From the IMG/VR virus record IMGVR_UViG_3300032223_002329, positions 1 through 24,110 of that record: a DNA stretch of 24,110 nucleotides; one strand, given 5' to 3'. The translations under genes were made by a program, and so were the position numbers. Position 1 is the first letter of the stretch. Each line of letters starts with the position of its first letter. The notes beneath the pieces are model-generated. The model searched no databases. It was not told the DNA's origin and worked only from the letters and a program-made list of their open reading frames with translations. Below, in pieces: positions 2,847-16,556 of this stretch. The DNA is from a virus.

Positions 2847-3175
2847 TGGCACAAGTCCATAAGGTTTTAGGTCAGGTTATACCTACAGCAGCAACATTAA
2901 CTAATCTTTATACTGTTCCAGCAGCAACCAGTACTATTGTTTCCACTTTGGTTATTTGCAACCAAACTGCATCAGCAAAGACATTTCGGATAGCTGTAAA
3001 AAAGTTAGGTGTATCAATTTCCGATGAAATGTATATTGCTTATGATTCACCAATTGCAGCATCAGATTCAATTTTCCTTACAATAGGAATTACACTATCT
3101 GCAACAGATGTTATATCTGTTTATTCTGCTGATGGTTCTGTTGGATTTTCTTTATTTGGTGCGGAGATTTCATAA
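2846..3175 (+). CDS. Conserved phage tail-associated small protein (unknown function)
   Basis: Length is 109 residues. The start overlaps the previous stop (TAATG) and GGGGGA (2835-2840) lies 5 bases before it. The pattern '[31 protein letters not shown]' (around residues 21-51), then '[32 protein letters not shown]' and a 'FSLFGAEI' end, matches from memory a common family of small beta-sandwich proteins found beside phage tail-fibre genes. The role is undefined; a virion accessory or fibre cap is plausible. There are no membrane segments or catalytic motifs. The gene is in the middle of a rightward run of overlapping fibre genes, and its assignment as a real gene is firm. Confidence 0.8.
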
Positions 3176-3176
3176 C

Positions 3177-3812
3177 ATGACAGTAACTAATTTTACAAAC
3201 AGAGTGGTAAATATAAAAAATGTTGCACCTACACCTACCCCTAGTCCAAGTCCTACTCCTACACCTACTCCAACTCCTACACCTACACCTACACCTACAC
3301 CAACACCTACACCAACCCCTACACCAACCCCTACACCAACCCCTACACCAACACCTACGCCAACACCTACACCTACTCCAACACCTACTCCAACACCTAC
3401 ACCTACACCTACTCCTACTCCGACTCCAACACCAACACCTAGCCCTACTCCTACACCAAATTTAGTCAAAATTTCAGAGACTGGTAGTAGTCATACAGTT
3501 TCTGGTGATGGTTCGATGATGTCTCCATTAACAGGGTATGTTAATGATTCGTTGACAATAAATTATCAAGCTTCGGTTAGTGGAACACTTTATTATAATT
3601 TTAGTCTGTATGACATGATGTCTAGCGGTGCAATCGGTTATGTTACTATTAATGGAACTTACATAGAAGGTGTTTTGTATGCCAACGGCATGAATTTTAC
3701 TGGAACAATAGGAATTTCTTCTGGTGACTCTTTGTCTATACTTTTTAGCATGGGTTCTGGGTATCCTGGAATGACTTATCTTACAATAACTTCAATTTAT
3801 ATTTCTGTTTAA
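3177..3812 (+). CDS. Fibre-like protein with long Thr-Pro linker and C-terminal beta domain
   Basis: The ATG at 3177 follows the previous stop by 1 base, with GCGGAG at 3161-3166; it gives 211 residues. The architecture is unusual: a short N-terminal stub (about 16 residues), then 77 residues of almost perfect Thr-Pro dipeptides (3228-3458, a few Ser replacing Thr), then about 118 residues of a Gly/Ser/Thr/aromatic-rich beta domain. Such Pro-Thr tracts form stiff extended spacers. The C-terminal domain ('[11 protein letters not shown]', '[11 protein letters not shown]', '[23 protein letters not shown]') resembles the end of the 10238 gene product, which also follows a Pro/Thr linker. I infer a virion-anchored stalk displaying an adhesin-like head. 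No signal peptide is seen. The antisense Gly-Val frame here is a repeat artefact. Confidence 0.75.
3228..3458 (+). repeat. Thr-Pro coding repeat, about 38 imperfect hexanucleotide units
   Basis: A 231-base tract made of alternating Thr (ACA/ACT/ACC/ACG) and Pro (CCT/CCA/CCC) codons. The unit is six bases, but synonymous codons are mixed, so no long perfect DNA repeat exists; 'ccaacccctaca' type blocks recur around 3310-3350. This mixing suggests selection on the protein linker, with past slippage or unequal recombination in steps of 6 or 12 bases that keep frame. Confidence 0.95.
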
Positions 3813-3880: not shown

Positions 3881-4150
3881 ATGATGTTCGCAGAAATAAA
3901 TATAATCGACATATTTGAGCGTTTCGGGGTTTCTTTAAGTTTTCTGATTTTTATGCTGTGGGCAACTTATAAAGGTTTTGGGTGGTTAGGAGGTAATATA
4001 TTATTGCCACTACATCAAAGACATATGTTGTTTATAGACAGGTTAGAAAACTCAATTGGCGAAGTAGCCAAGGCTCAAGCGGAAAGCTTGAGGATTTTAA
4101 CAGAGGTTTTGAATTACACTAGGACTTTAAAAAAGGAAGTGAAACAATGA
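3881..4150 (+). CDS. Single-TM small membrane protein, holin-like
   Basis: The ATG at 3881 is chosen because GGAGG (3868-3872) lies 8 bases upstream; a TTG further up overlaps the ribosome site itself. The 89-residue product has one hydrophobic span at about residues 15-37 ('SLSFLIFMLWATYKGFGWLG') followed by a long charged helix with heptad-like spacing ('RLENSIGEVAKAQAESLRILTEV') and a Lys-rich tail. This one-TM plus cytosolic coiled-coil layout resembles small phage holins of the BhlA/UviB type, but the same layout occurs in other membrane proteins and I see no decisive motif. It opens the operon leading to the cysteine peptidase. Its stop overlaps the next start (ATGA). Confidence 0.7.
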   Translation: MMFAEINIIDIFERFGVSLSFLIFMLWATYKGFGWLGGNILLPLHQRHMLFIDRLENSIGEVAKAQAESLRILTEVLNYTRTLKKEVKQ

Positions 4151-4464
4151 TTAATTTTCCGCAAGCTATGCCTACAGATGCCATGATGCTAGTTGTTGAC
4201 AAAGTGCGTGGCAAAAAAGATGTAGGTAATAAAGAATTTAGTAATGCACTTTGGAACATCGTTGGATACGCTGCTGATCAAGTTATTCCTGACGATAAGC
4301 AAATCTTTCAAGAATCTGAAGTTTCTCTTGAAGATTTTGCTGCAATTCTTGAACAAGCAATTCCACAGGGTGATTTCCACGGCAACCCAGTTACGATTGG
4401 AATTGTGCCTTGGGCAATCGTTCTTAAGACAGCATTAAAGCTACTGATCTCCGTTTTTTTATAA
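4147..4464 (+). CDS. Small hypothetical protein ending in a hydrophobic segment; may be frameshift-fused to the HNH
   Basis: Length is 105 residues, with the start overlapping the previous stop (ATGA). The N-terminal two thirds are mixed and acidic ('KVRGKKDVGNKEFSNALWNIVGYAADQVIP'), with no family I recognise. The last 20 residues are hydrophobic ('IGIVPWAIVLKTALKLLISVFL', about 84-105), possibly membrane-associated. The frame ends TTT TTA TAA in a run of seven T (4454-4460). Removing one T would carry the frame directly into the HNH domain that follows in the +1 frame and has no start codon of its own. It may therefore be the N-terminal half of a longer protein. Confidence 0.65.
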   Translation: MINFPQAMPTDAMMLVVDKVRGKKDVGNKEFSNALWNIVGYAADQVIPDDKQIFQESEVSLEDFAAILEQAIPQGDFHGNPVTIGIVPWAIVLKTALKLLISVFL

Positions 4465-4738
4465 TCGGGGATCACAATGGGCCAAGGTTAGAGCAGAACA
4501 TTTAGAAAAGAATCCTTATTGTGCTGCTTGCCTTGAAGATGATCCCGAATTGCTTCAAGTCCACCATCTGATACCATACTCGGTAGATCCTTCTAGAGAG
4601 ATGGAATCAGAAAATTTACTATCGTTATGCCGACCTTGTCATTTTCTTTTTGGTCACGCAAAAAAATGGGCCTCGGTTAATGTACATTGTTTGTCAGATT
4701 CTAGAATAATGGCAGAAAGAATAAGGAATAGACCATGA
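4448..4738 (+). CDS. HNH endonuclease without a usable start codon (+1 relative to the upstream gene)
   Basis: The frame opens after a TGA at 4445-4447 and ends at 4738. Translation reads 'NRGSQWAKVRAEHLEKNPYC', then 'AAC', then 'LLQVHHLIPYSVDP', 'NLLSLCRPCHFLFGH' and 'W'. This is a standard zinc-binding HNH nuclease: paired CxxC motifs (CAAC, CRPC), the HH of the beta hairpin, the N, and the final H. There is no ATG, GTG or TTG before the TTG at 4550, which would drop the first CxxC and the 'W..VR..HL' helix, so a start there would break the domain. Nor is there an in-frame ATT or ATC. The natural reading is a frameshift at the T7 run from the 4147 gene, or a one-base insertion or sequencing error. 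HNH enzymes often assist phage packaging, but this copy is far from the terminase. ATGA overlap with the next gene. Confidence 0.8.
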   Translation, partial: SPFFYNRGSQWAKVRAEHLEKNPYCAACLEDDPELLQVHHLIPYSVDPSREMESENLLSLCRPCHFLFGHAKKWASVNVHCLSDSRIMAERIRNRP

Positions 4739-5376
4739 TAAATCTTCTATTTTTAGTGTTTCTTCAAGTACCCACTATAGAGCTTCCTTTAAAAGTTTCT
4801 GGGCAACCAGGGGCGTTTATAAGCGTTCCCTCAAAGACTGAATCCAAGATTGTTAAATGGGTTTCAATTGATAAGGGTTTAAATATATTTCCTGTGGATC
4901 TGTTGAAGGATTCCAAAACTCTGGTAGTCACTTCGCAGATACAAGGTGTGTACAGATTGTTTGCTTATGTGGGTGATGGTTTTGGCCCTTCTGATCCAGC
5001 GTTTACATCTGTAGTAATTGGTGATGAACCCGCTCCCGCTCCCGCTCCACCTACTCCACCAGTAAATCCAGATGGAGATATTAAAGCAGCAGCAGCAAAA
5101 GAAGATAAAGACCAAGTAAAATGGTTGTCCATGTTTTACGATGAGCTTGCAAAAGAATGTCAGAAAAACGACTACGAATTTCTTACAGATGTTTTTAAAG
5201 CAGCAAAGGCAACCATCAATAAACAGTTCATGGAAAACGAACTTGCTAATCTCAGGGATGTAATTGGAAAAAGATTAAACCAAAAGCTTCCTAAAGACGG
5301 AACGCTTAAGCTTGATCAAAAACTCAGGGATCTTCTTACTAATGAATTTAACCAAATAGCAAAGGAGTTGAAGTAA
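4735..5376 (+). CDS. Exported beta-domain protein with Pro/Ala linker and helical C-terminus
   Basis: Length is 213 residues. The N-terminus ('MINLLFLVFLQVPTIELP') is a short hydrophobic stretch fitting a signal peptide or anchor. Residues about 18-95 form a beta-rich region ('VSGQPGAFISVPSKTESKIVKWVSIDKGLNIFP', 'TLVVTSQIQGVYRLFAYVGDG') resembling PKD/Ig-like domains seen in planctomycete and planctomycete-phage proteins; this is from memory, not proven. A 'PAPAPAPPTPPVNP' linker follows (about 98-112), then a highly charged, helical C-terminal half. The start overlaps the HNH stop (ATGA) and the stop overlaps the next start (TAATG), so it is translationally coupled to the peptidase gene. The function is unknown; an envelope role linked to the adjacent peptidase is an inference. 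Confidence 0.75.
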   Translation: MINLLFLVFLQVPTIELPLKVSGQPGAFISVPSKTESKIVKWVSIDKGLNIFPVDLLKDSKTLVVTSQIQGVYRLFAYVGDGFGPSDPAFTSVVIGDEPAPAPAPPTPPVNPDGDIKAAAAKEDKDQVKWLSMFYDELAKECQKNDYEFLTDVFKAAKATINKQFMENELANLRDVIGKRLNQKLPKDGTLKLDQKLRDLLTNEFNQIAKELK

Positions 5377-6371: not shown

Positions 6372-6408
6372 TGTGCTTGGTTACTTTTTTTCTTTAGGAG
6401 GAAGCAAT

Positions 6409-6631: not shown

Positions 6632-6644
6632 ATATAGATAACCA

Positions 6645-6677
6645 CAGGACACAATTAAAACTGTGTCCTGTTTTTTT
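6645..6677 (+). terminator. Strong intrinsic (Rho-independent) terminator
   Basis: A perfect 9-base-pair stem, CAGGACACA (6645-6653) with TGTGTCCTG (6662-6670), encloses an 8-base loop and is followed at once by seven T (6671-6677). This is the textbook intrinsic terminator for rightward transcription. It closes the 3881-6618 operon. It ends only 11 bases before the ATG at 6689, whose AGAGG ribosome site starts within 2 bases of the T run. Confidence 0.92.
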
Positions 6678-12804: not shown

Positions 12805-14140
12805 TTCGGTTGCCAATGGTGCAAGAAAAGTTTTAGTCAGATCAGCACATAATCAAGGCAAAACTTTTTTGTGTGCTGTGATCGCTTCATGGTTTCACGA
12901 TCACTTTACACCATCAGAAGTTTTGATTTCAGCACCTGTTGCCCAGCAGATCAAAGATGGTGTGTTCAAAGAATTACGCAGGGTTAGACCAAGAGATCCA
13001 AACTGGATGCCCAAGGCTAATCGTCTTGAAAAGAATCCCTCGCATTACATCCAGGGTTTAACCGCTCAAAAGGCTGATGCTTTCCAAGGTAGACATTCCG
13101 CTGGTGGTTTGTGCATCCTGTTTGACGAGGCATCTGGTATTGAACCCACATTCTGGGAACGAGCAGAATCGATGCTTTCAGCCAGCAAAGAGAATTGTTT
13201 ATGGTTTTGTATTTTCAATCCATATGATGCTTCATCACCCGCCTATTTTGCTGAAAACTCTCCTGACTGGAAAGTGTTTCATTTATCCGCTCTTGACCAT
13301 CCTAATGTTGCTTTTAAGGCCGATCTTGTGCCAGGTGCTATTAATTATGAGTATGTAGAGAACCGCATCAAAAACGAGTGCAGATCCGCCAGAGAAGGTG
13401 AAGAATCTGAGCCAGGGTTTTTTACCTTCAATGATCGAAACTACATGGTTGAAGACCCGCTTTTTGACATCCAAGTTCTTGGAAGATACCCAAGTAAGGC
13501 GATCAACTCGGTATGGGGTGCTTTGGCACTTAAACAAATCCTTGATCCGATTCCGCTTAATAAGGATTGGGTGGTTCAGATTGGTGCTGACCCTGCAAGG
13601 TTCGGTGACGATAGATCCTGTTTAGTTGTCAGGCATGGATGTTGCATCATAGATGCGAAGGAGTATCGTGGATTGTCTACGAAAGAGTTCTCAGAAAAGA
13701 TTAAAGAGTATTGCCAAAAATATGAGAACCCAAGGCAATCGCAATACAAGATCCCTGTGCTTATTGATGAGGGTGGTGTTGGTGGTGGTGTGGTTGATAA
13801 CAAGGGTGATTATATGTTCTATGGTATTAATTCGTCTGGTGAAGCACCAAGGTGGCGGGAGTTCCCGAACATGAGATCCGCTCTTTGGTTTGAAGCAGCG
13901 GAGCTTGCGATGGAGGGTAAAGTTTCAATTGGGCATCTTCCACTTCATATGCGTGAAAGAATGATGGAAGAACTTAGAACTCCTGTATACATTGTGGATA
14001 CGAATGGCAGAAGAGTGGTTGAATCTAAGGACATGATGAAGCGAAGACTTAAGCACTCTCCTGACCTTGCAGATGCTTTTAACTTAGCTCTGATGTCGAT
14101 CCCTCGAATTGGGATCGAGAAGGTGATTGGTCATTTATAA
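12584..14140 (+). CDS. terL: Terminase large subunit (packaging ATPase-nuclease)
   Basis: This is the DNA-packaging motor. Visible motifs include 'LTPQQMEIFDSVANGARKVLVRSAHNQGKT' (adenine-motif region then Walker A of the SAHNQGKT type), 'GLCILFDEASGI' (Walker B, DE), and a C-terminal RNase H-like nuclease with 'IGADPARFGDDRSCLVV', 'VLIDEGGVGGGVVD' and 'HSPDLADAFNLAL' supplying the acidic residues. Both enzymatic halves look intact. The start is uncertain: ATG 12584/12587 has AAGGA (12574-12578) upstream but overlaps the small-subunit gene by about 220 bases in a low-complexity stretch; GTG 12728 would give a tighter protein that still retains all motifs. The 3' end overlaps the opposing primase-helicase gene by 62 bases. 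No portal gene follows, which is unusual. Confidence 0.9.
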   Translation: MMSKNSKNSSTNNLQKKWQRVLSSPILQGKLSEIQEVKRVNRENQKTIVIPKNPGEYCEYLGISLTPQQMEIFDSVANGARKVLVRSAHNQGKTFLCAVIASWFHDHFTPSEVLISAPVAQQIKDGVFKELRRVRPRDPNWMPKANRLEKNPSHYIQGLTAQKADAFQGRHSAGGLCILFDEASGIEPTFWERAESMLSASKENCLWFCIFNPYDASSPAYFAENSPDWKVFHLSALDHPNVAFKADLVPGAINYEYVENRIKNECRSAREGEESEPGFFTFNDRNYMVEDPLFDIQVLGRYPSKAINSVWGALALKQILDPIPLNKDWVVQIGADPARFGDDRSCLVVRHGCCIIDAKEYRGLSTKEFSEKIKEYCQKYENPRQSQYKIPVLIDEGGVGGGVVDNKGDYMFYGINSSGEAPRWREFPNMRSALWFEAAELAMEGKVSIGHLPLHMRERMMEELRTPVYIVDTNGRRVVESKDMMKRRLKHSPDLADAFNLALMSIPRIGIEKVIGHL

Positions 14141-16556
14141 CAATGTACATTGAACCAGCACCATTCGCATCTCGGCTTTTTCTAATTGAAATTTCACCGC
14201 AATCTTGAAGGTATCGGATTGCATCGTCAACACTTTGCCCGCTGTGTACGATCTTTCTTAGATGTCTCTTAGCATCGATCATTTTTACACCATACACATC
14301 TGGTTCGATTTCGTTTAGTGAGTCTTTGATCATGTTTAAAAGCTTGTCAGTAATTTCACCAAACTTAGTATCGCTTACCATAACTGTATTAGCGGTCTGT
14401 CGCTTGTTAACTTCACGCACAAATTTAAATCCAGAAGTTACTCCAGCTAGCGAAATCGTATCAGCGTTTATGTCTTGGCTTAATTCCCACAGGCAAGCTA
14501 TTTTTAAAGCTAACTCTGGAAGTCTAGCACATGAAGAGGCTTTTTCTTCTTCGCTGTTTTTTTGGTACTTGGAATAAAGATCATCGTTTTCCCACACTTG
14601 AGTTTGAAAAAACTCCAAAGCATCTTCATCAAGAAGAAGTATTTTTGAATCCCTTTCAATCTGGTTTAGTGGTGCATTTCCAAGTGCATCAAGCTTAGTA
14701 TCTTGCATAAATTCCTTGATGACTCCAGGAACAAGATTCTCATTCATGGCGATCAGTCTTGCAGCAACCTCAACCAAATATTCTGGAATTGGTTCTGATA
14801 CAGACATTCCACGAAGATTCATCCTACCTCTGATTGCAGATTGTAAAATCAGCAAACGATTGTAAAAACCTGACCGAAGCATCTTAGGCGATAAAGCTTT
14901 GAAATACTCTTCGGGGGTCGATGAAGTCATAATGGAAAGGAATGGATAGCGAATAAAATTTTCTGAATCCGCATCACCCGCTTTAGCTCTTCTCTTAATA
15001 TAATTTGATGTGAACAGTTCTAGCATTGTTCCCATGACATCATTGAACCTTGTGTCACCTGACTTTGCTTTCTCAAGATCAAATGCACCTTCATCAGCCA
15101 TAAGGAACTTCGGCCCTTGAATCACCTTTTCTTCAAGACCCTCTCTTGAACCTACCTTCGTCATTAGCAAGCTTGCGTTATCAATTTCCATACAGATTCT
15201 AGCGTTCAATTTTCGTGGAAAATCTTTGCCCGAAGCTGTCAAACCAAGCACAACAATGTATAGGTTAAGCTTTAATTCATTTGGCCCCATGATGCATCTT
15301 CCCACTAAAGCGGAGAACATACCTAATGCAGATGCAGCAGCAATTCGCTTCTCTGGGTATAGTGCGTTTCTCATACAGTAGTCGATGTATGTATCGATCC
15401 AACCAGGAAATGAAATCGCATCGTCAGGCACAATGTCTACAGTTCTGACCTGTTTAACTTTGCCCGACTTTGTTGTTTCAAGGAAATCCCATCTTGATTC
15501 ATTCACAGGCTCGTCTTCAATCTTGTCTATTGAATACTTAGCAAAAACCTGTGCGTAAAATGTTTTCCACTCTCTACTTCCAGGCTGCCAACCTCTACTC
15601 ATGCAGTAAACATAATCTTTGGTAAGTGGAATGTTTGGACTCAATCTCCAATCCAATGGACTGAAATTCCAATAGCGATCCATGCCACCATTTTTGCACC
15701 CTGCAATTGCGTTAGGTTCTCTTCCTGACGAATCGGGATGCCAAACTAAAAAGTAATCATGCCTGACTTCAACAACTCGATAGGAATCTGGAAGAATTTC
15801 GGGCCATGAAGTTTCCGCTCTCCATTGATCAAGGGCGGTTTTCTTTCCTATTTCTTTGTATTGGTAAGGTTCTTTATTTAACTCGATGAATCTCTTTGCT
15901 GCCTTTTGGTCATAAGATTGGGCAAATGACATTAGAAATTCATGCTCATCCGCAGTCAGGGTTGGAATAGTTGCCACATCCCCATGAATCATTTTATATG
16001 GCTTAACCAATCCATCAATTTTTGAGACTGCCTGAGAATAGAATCCAACCACATATCCACCCGCACCCCTTGTTTCAATCAATGGTGGAGCGATCTTTTT
16101 AGTAGATCCTTTAGCTTTAGCTTCGGCAAGCCATTTCTTTCCATTGTCCGTAGACATTACCGCCAATTCACGGCATTTTGATTTACCTAATGGCAAATAG
16201 TAGAAAATGTGTAAACCTTCAGATGGAGTGGTTTCCACGCATCCACACAGTTTATCGTGTAGCTCTTTGCTTGATGCTTCAAGGTCAGGAAGGAAATCTA
16301 GTGCCACTTTAGGGCAGTCGATATCAAGGCACTCAAGATCCTTGTTTTTTCCCACAACTGGGCCACAGTTGATGGCTATCCCTGCTACATTTGCATGACT
16401 GAAATCTATCTCAATTTCGAGGTCTGACAGCGGGTTAGCTCTAAGCTCAACTATGCGATTAGTTCGCTTAATTACTGGGGTTTTATCGACCTTAGTTGAG
16501 AAGACTGATAACCCTTGTTTACGAACTCGCAAAGCCTGTTTTTTTATTTCTTCCAA
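14079..16556 (-). CDS. Primase-polymerase / helicase fusion
   Basis: Length is 825 residues; TTG start (caa at 16554-16556), as no ATG precedes the conserved N-terminus 'ALRVRKQGLSVFSTKVDKTPVI'. Residues 1 to about 180 are an archaeo-eukaryotic-type Prim-Pol: 'CLDIDCP' with Asp78 and Asp80, 'PSEGLHIFYY' with His116, and 'ETRGAGGYVVG' at 161. A linker of about 200 residues follows. The C-terminal half is a P-loop helicase/ATPase of the DUF3987-like kind: 'VVLGLTASGKD' (Walker A, about 438-445), 'FLMADEGAF' (Walker B, about 484-489), 'SIMTSSTPEEYF' and 'LLILQSAIRGRMN' (likely Arg finger). It would prime and unwind phage DNA at the fork. It is the last gene of the leftward replication block; its final 20 codons overlap terL on the other strand. 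Confidence 0.85.
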   Translation of the reverse strand: MEEIKKQALRVRKQGLSVFSTKVDKTPVIKRTNRIVELRANPLSDLEIEIDFSHANVAGIAINCGPVVGKNKDLECLDIDCPKVALDFLPDLEASSKELHDKLCGCVETTPSEGLHIFYYLPLGKSKCRELAVMSTDNGKKWLAEAKAKGSTKKIAPPLIETRGAGGYVVGFYSQAVSKIDGLVKPYKMIHGDVATIPTLTADEHEFLMSFAQSYDQKAAKRFIELNKEPYQYKEIGKKTALDQWRAETSWPEILPDSYRVVEVRHDYFLVWHPDSSGREPNAIAGCKNGGMDRYWNFSPLDWRLSPNIPLTKDYVYCMSRGWQPGSREWKTFYAQVFAKYSIDKIEDEPVNESRWDFLETTKSGKVKQVRTVDIVPDDAISFPGWIDTYIDYCMRNALYPEKRIAAASALGMFSALVGRCIMGPNELKLNLYIVVLGLTASGKDFPRKLNARICMEIDNASLLMTKVGSREGLEEKVIQGPKFLMADEGAFDLEKAKSGDTRFNDVMGTMLELFTSNYIKRRAKAGDADSENFIRYPFLSIMTSSTPEEYFKALSPKMLRSGFYNRLLILQSAIRGRMNLRGMSVSEPIPEYLVEVAARLIAMNENLVPGVIKEFMQDTKLDALGNAPLNQIERDSKILLLDEDALEFFQTQVWENDDLYSKYQKNSEEEKASSCARLPELALKIACLWELSQDINADTISLAGVTSGFKFVREVNKRQTANTVMVSDTKFGEITDKLLNMIKDSLNEIEPDVYGVKMIDAKRHLRKIVHSGQSVDDAIRYLQDCGEISIRKSRDANGAGSMYIVINDQSPSRSQFEGSTSELS

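Follow-up and report, generated by a model that had tools for sequence, protein, structure and literature searches.

A start-less HNH nuclease frame behind a phage gene, probably reached by ribosomal frameshifting on a conserved T run

The window, meaning the whole stretch of DNA that was analysed, is a virus record of 24,110 bases (IMG/VR IMGVR_UViG_3300032223_002329, positions 1 to 24,110). At the junction studied here, a gene that we call X ends on a run of seven T residues (T7) and is followed by an HNH nuclease frame without a start codon. The features of the junction are listed below.

4147-4464, + strand: gene X, a 105-aa zero-frame product with four predicted helices and a hydrophobic C-terminal helix (ORF; AF2 models)
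4448-4738, + strand: start-less HNH open frame, in the +1/-2 frame relative to X; domain (CxxC, HH, N, CxxCH) from 4466
4454-4461, + strand: putative slippery run UUUUUUUA, zero frame GUU UUU UUA with U UUU UUA inside; kept in all T7-type contigs
4462-4464, + strand: zero-frame stop TAA, abutting the run
4462-4467, + strand: 6-nt spacer separating the stem from the run; the T6 clade has a spacer of equal length
4468-4474, + strand: 5' arm of the stem, GGGATCA, from folding of the aligned region
4540-4546, + strand: 3' arm of the stem, TGATCCC; pairing in 99% of cells, two-sided changes in 8
4483-4535, + strand: possible nested helices in the loop (4483-4488/4530-4535 and 4491-4496/4524-4529), weaker in distant subclades
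4445-4474, + strand: alternative hairpin UGAUCUCCG / CGGGGAUCA with T7 in its loop, sharing the GGGGAUCA arm
4735-5376, + strand: next gene, whose ATG overlaps the HNH stop (ATGA)

The 3' end of X reads ATC TCC GTT TTT TTA TAA, and the T7 run spans exactly 4454-4460. The original prediction had placed this run inside the end of X and the HNH in the +1 frame, and an ORF and sequence check confirmed both. Coding of the HNH domain begins two bases past the X stop, and the frame, which translates as SPFFYNRGSQWAKVRAEHL..., closes at its own stop at 4736-4738. The predicted lack of a start also held: no ATG, GTG, TTG, ATT or ATC was found in this frame, open from 4448, upstream of the TTG at 4550. 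This first ordinary start lies past the first zinc CxxC, and gene callers would either miss this conserved phage nuclease or truncate it there. Joining the two frames at the run produced the expected fusion of X to HNH, ...KLLISVFYNRGSQWAKVRAEHL... We also considered the TATAAT at 4460-4465 as an HNH promoter and rejected it: it did not appear in the scan output, reads TATTGT or TGTAAT in relatives, and supplies no start codon. Elsewhere in the window, a long Thr-Pro repeat is present in an upstream gene near fibre-like genes (3108-3812; also in contig L042 at 99-1502, with a different length), and the minus strand at 14079-16556 encodes an 825-aa protein with an N-terminal Prim-Pol domain (PF09250).

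By profile and residues, the start-less frame encodes an HNH endonuclease (PF01844), its activity being predicted. In a profile search the product scored 28.8 bits against the Pfam HNH model PF01844 (cut-off 21.4), a homolog from a sister clade (L049) scored 35.0 bits, and several PHROG HNH families also matched the window protein. Residues C19, C22, H33, H34, N50, C55, C58 and H59, which represent the metal and catalytic positions, were invariant among aligned relatives. The dN/dS values for HNH were mostly about 0.09-0.35, and dS was mostly >1 between subclades, as is expected of a protein under purifying selection whose silent sites are near saturation. X is a conserved family as well, with about 90 loci. 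It had no match in Pfam and a single weak, unnamed match in PHROGs. Neither the fusion nor X matched a solved structure in fold searches, and the best viral model match was an unnamed 114-aa phage protein (E 7e-4). Modelled alone, X formed four helices. In the fusion model (mean pLDDT 74.6), a single continuous helix of residues 89-121 spanned the junction and linked the hydrophobic C-terminal helix of X with the first HNH helix. Because the pairing of X with HNH persists in a large family of phages, a role for X in positioning or restraining the nuclease is probable, and this unnamed protein family is now linked to an HNH enzyme. Packaging aid, attack on rival DNA and a homing-type enzyme are all candidate roles for the HNH, and the choice among them is undecided; a free-standing homing endonuclease would be expected to show empty-site relatives and block transfer of its gene, and what was observed is that HNH-less sister phages exist and that the HNH block is exchanged between phages. 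Between near-identical phages (L001 versus L012/L023), HNH positions 0-240 were swapped, with the boundary at the T7/GGGGATC junction: identity was ~76-100% upstream, 96-100% just before the junction, 46-80% inside HNH and ~85% after it. An exchange so sharply bounded shows HNH behaving as a module. In a separate case, the X homolog of L055/L064 (1587-2379), without HNH directly behind it, carries a long EGEHKPEGEH-type repeat inserted between its N- and C-terminal parts.

Two IMG/VR searches with HNH identified 21 relatives with the same junction, at 57-99% identity over the full HNH length. In all 21, X was upstream, T7 was present, HNH was in the +1 frame and a usable start was absent. When X was the query, another T7 group came to light (L059-L063, with UUUUUUUG), as did L072, a MAG contig. 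Altogether, X, T7, the +1 frame and the absent start were kept in 27/27 other T7-type contigs found, derived from many samples. When genome contigs were searched with X, only two MAG contigs matched; these (L072 and L073, filed under Flavipsychrobacter and Rhodobacteraceae MAGs) carry the X-HNH pair, and their binning is doubtful. The junction T7 run was kept in 21 of 22 aligned relatives, the lone exception being a member of the T6 clade. For other homopolymers of at least 7 within coding DNA nearby, retention among aligned relatives was 0/3, 0/4, 11/21, 7/20 and 0/5, and these counts led us to reject the idea that such runs are equally conserved. Two runs taken as intergenic, at 6385 and 6671, were also kept (13/17 and 8/9); around the latter, a strong terminator-like stem followed by T7 (6644-6677) was kept in 8/9 aligned relatives. 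Judged by these comparisons, the combination of run, frame offset and missing start exceeds chance.

A sister clade differed at the run itself. In L049, L050, L056, L057 and L058, the end of X reads GCT TTT TTA TAG and HNH lies in the -1 frame. Here U UUU UUA is followed by a 6-nt spacer and a GGGGCU/GGCCCC stem. In L058 the stem is GAGGCU/GGCCUC, one pair being altered on both sides through two synonymous substitutions, i.e., a compensatory change. This clade clearly fits -1 slippage, and would reach the same HNH via a canonical-looking site. Its run differs from that of the T7 clade by one 5' base (GCT vs GTT/CTT/ATT), and a separate one-base difference lies between the run and HNH. This observation suggested that run length and the required slip changed together: extension of the T run (GCT to GTT/CTT/ATT) accompanies a change in the needed slip from -1 to -2.

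Five other phages (L039-L043) have X, its C-terminal ISVFL and the same next gene, with no HNH behind X. They write Val-Phe-Leu as GTT TTC TTA (TTTTCTTA), so the T run is broken. Phe is mostly encoded by TTT in these genomes (0.67-0.87), and a single TTC is therefore modest evidence on its own, though in the right direction. These phages were placed among T7 phages on the X tree, and so probably lost HNH. An HNH domain search of their contigs, several of which are fragments, found none in four and one elsewhere in the fifth.

The original prediction had left two possibilities, recoding or a single-base insertion. For the second, in which a sequencing error or recent inactivating insertion left HNH as a pseudogene, the broken frame in the window is the only point in favor. 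We consider its probability practically nil and the insertion ruled out, because 28 T7-type contigs conserve the junction with saturated silent sites, because the run is broken in HNH-less sisters, and because a related clade reaches the same HNH via the -1 site described above. The identical state in 27 other contigs from many samples, purifying selection, and the invariance of all metal and catalytic residues also argue against it. Programmed recoding was the part that gained support.

Folding of the aligned T7-clade region revealed a 7-bp stem that begins 6 nt past UUUUUUUA, and 99% of its 105 cells paired. At one pair, with both bases at codon wobble positions, G-C, A-U and U-A types were all seen; another occurred as A-U, G-U and G-C. 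None of 500 shuffles matched the stem in pairing, two-sided-cell count or covariation score, and versions slid along the alignment dropped to 22-61% paired. In five subclade representatives 35/35 stem pairs were intact, and, with lineages treated as independent, 0/20,000 synonymous randomisations equalled this and 0/3,000 gave an equally good stem at any nearby position. This covarying stem is a putative stimulator, its 6-nt distance falling within the 5-8 nt spacing usual for -1 sites (PMC4066793). No conserved pseudoknot partner for the stem loop stood out. The alternative hairpin with T7 in its loop was stable in the window; it was rejected as the signal because it showed no two-sided changes. 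Its 5' arm sits in conserved Ile-Ser codons that are retained in HNH-less phages too, and it is probably an incidental or competing pairing.

Taken together, programmed ribosomal frameshifting probably appends HNH to X. The candidate slip site combines features by which frameshift sites are recognized: a conserved run that allows re-pairing, a downstream stem and purifying selection on the downstream frame. T7 or T6 was present in all HNH-bearing members of the recoding clade and broken in the HNH-less sisters. Most ribosomes would end X at the stop at 4462 and make the 105-aa protein, and a fraction, held by the stem 6 nt downstream, would slip on UUUUUUUA into the HNH frame and make an X-HNH fusion of about 196 aa. 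Recoding would set a low nuclease-to-X ratio; both fusion production and this ratio are what we infer from the sequences. In the T6 clade, a -1 slip on U UUU UUA would yield the same nuclease.

The slip direction in the T7 clade is undecided, as -2 and +1 reach the same frame. On balance, the slip would be -2: P-site Phe-tRNA and A-site Leu-tRNA on UUU UUA could re-pair on UUU UUU, joining ...LLISVFL-YNRG... Three observations favor this direction over +1, namely that the sister clade fits -1 on the same run, that the stem geometry is that of a backward slip, and that the third-position T before TTT is kept in GTT, CTT, ATT and GCT contexts, although its presence in four lineages could be chance (product about 0.03). 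Programmed +1 frameshifting, a rival regarding direction only, is unlikely but deserves attention. In it, P-site Phe-tRNA would move forward on UUU U while a UUA/UUG in the A site is slowly read, giving ...LLISVF-YNRG... The U7 run lets P-site Phe-tRNA shift in this way, UUU re-pairs perfectly in +1, the frame offset fits, and +1 slippage is the commonest known route into the +1 frame, -2 being rarer among known cases (PMC5009743). However, a +1 slip has no need of the first T's of the run, yet the preceding T is present in all four lineages; moreover, placement of a stem 6 nt on the 3' side is typical of backward slippage, and the sister clade clearly fits -1. The UUUUUUA of the T7 clade should also permit -1 slippage, which would lead into a short frame that stops soon in most contigs and is not conserved. 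HNH is in the -1 frame only in the five T6 contigs; in the window it is in +1/-2.

Ribosomal and transcriptional slippage had both been proposed at the outset. Slippage of RNA polymerase on T7, dropping one U or adding two so that the mRNA itself encodes the fusion, would agree with retention of a homopolymer run among relatives, and a one-base deletion does give the right frame. Nevertheless, we view it as improbable. With 7 residues, and 6 in the sister clade, the run is shorter than the length of about nine at which many bacteria begin to show selection against A/T runs (PMC1088944); the window tolerates other T7-T9 and A7-A9 runs, some of them in coding ORFs; and a covarying downstream stem would be unexpected. 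This stem, unnoticed earlier, points to the ribosome, with slippage most likely backward.

More distant homologs suggest how the arrangement arose. About 45 distant X genes (28-43% identity) were found, and nearly all are followed by an HNH of the same type with its own start, usually an ATG or GTG at -11, overlapping the X stop in +1, or just after the stop. L092, L104/L108 and L082-L085 have another distance or frame and still have ATG starts. On the X tree, which is poorly resolved inside the recoding clade, a branch with support 87/96 separates the T7, T6 and HNH-less phages, together the recoding group, from the others. The +1 offset was probably inherited from an overlapping gene pair, and we infer that, with frameshifting supplying the nuclease, HNH then lost its own start. 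The position of the former HNH start is now CCG, CTG, CGC or CGA, depending on the subclade, which indicates that reinitiation there was not maintained. This bears on another explanation, in which HNH is translated separately, with ribosomes that terminate on X reinitiating at a non-standard codon close to its stop. The coupled HNH starts of distant relatives, at -11 or just past the stop, lend it some plausibility, but no near-cognate start is common to the subclades, and it leaves unexplained the T run, the loss of the run in HNH-less phages and the -1 frame of the T6 clade; we find it very improbable. Under programmed frameshifting, a fuller scenario, evenly balanced between likely and unlikely, is that a separately started HNH became frameshift-dependent: one branch would use -1 on T6 and the other branches -2 on T7, and in each a separate covarying stem would sit at 6 nt.

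These phages offer a natural series, consisting of an own start, T6 with -1, T7 with -2 or +1, and a lost run with a lost nuclease. Along it, changes in run length are accompanied by changes in stem and frame, which would allow the determinants of slip distance to be tested with short reporters. Among the papers searched, none brought together programmed ribosomal frameshifting, HNH endonuclease and bacteriophage, and the titles and abstracts listed by wider searches included nothing on the X-HNH case. If true, the reading in which slip direction switched between clades describes a rare phage nuclease with recoding as its only expression route. The phage HNH endonucleases of PHROG 144/589 and PF01844 share with it the core domain, the zinc CxxC pairs and the HH/N/H residues. 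In contrast, the window HNH is start-less and would be attached to X by recoding, whereas the X-paired distant relatives have ordinary starts.

Among known recoding signals, the U UUU UUA -1 sites (HIV-1 gag-pol; bacterial IS elements and phages) share the heptamer, 6-nt spacer, stem and an enzyme behind a shorter protein. The T6 clade is a full match to these, whereas in the window the enzyme is in the +1/-2 frame behind T7. Tail genes of dsDNA phages use -1, -2 or +1 in different phages (PMC5009743), and the tail-assembly chaperone pair G/GT is likewise a phage gene pair whose direction varies by phage (PMC5009743). It differs in that the extension here is a nuclease, and X and HNH were unlike tail chaperones in all searches made. 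Two-base backward slippage is known from very few systems; -2 frameshifting occurs in phage Mu, arteriviruses and Trichomonas vaginalis virus 1 (TVV1), and TVV2-4 use -1 (PMC5009743). The Mu tail gene pair, arterivirus nsp2TF and TVV1 share with the window access to the +1 frame by a probable two-base backward slip. Here the product is an HNH nuclease, the run is U7 and the case is known from sequence alone. Among the Trichomonas viruses, too, relatives differ in direction, TVV1 using -2 and TVV2-4 using -1 (PMC5009743), in the way proposed for the T7 and T6 clades, and a direction switch in these phages, if real, would extend the short list of known -2 systems by a case from a bacterial virus.
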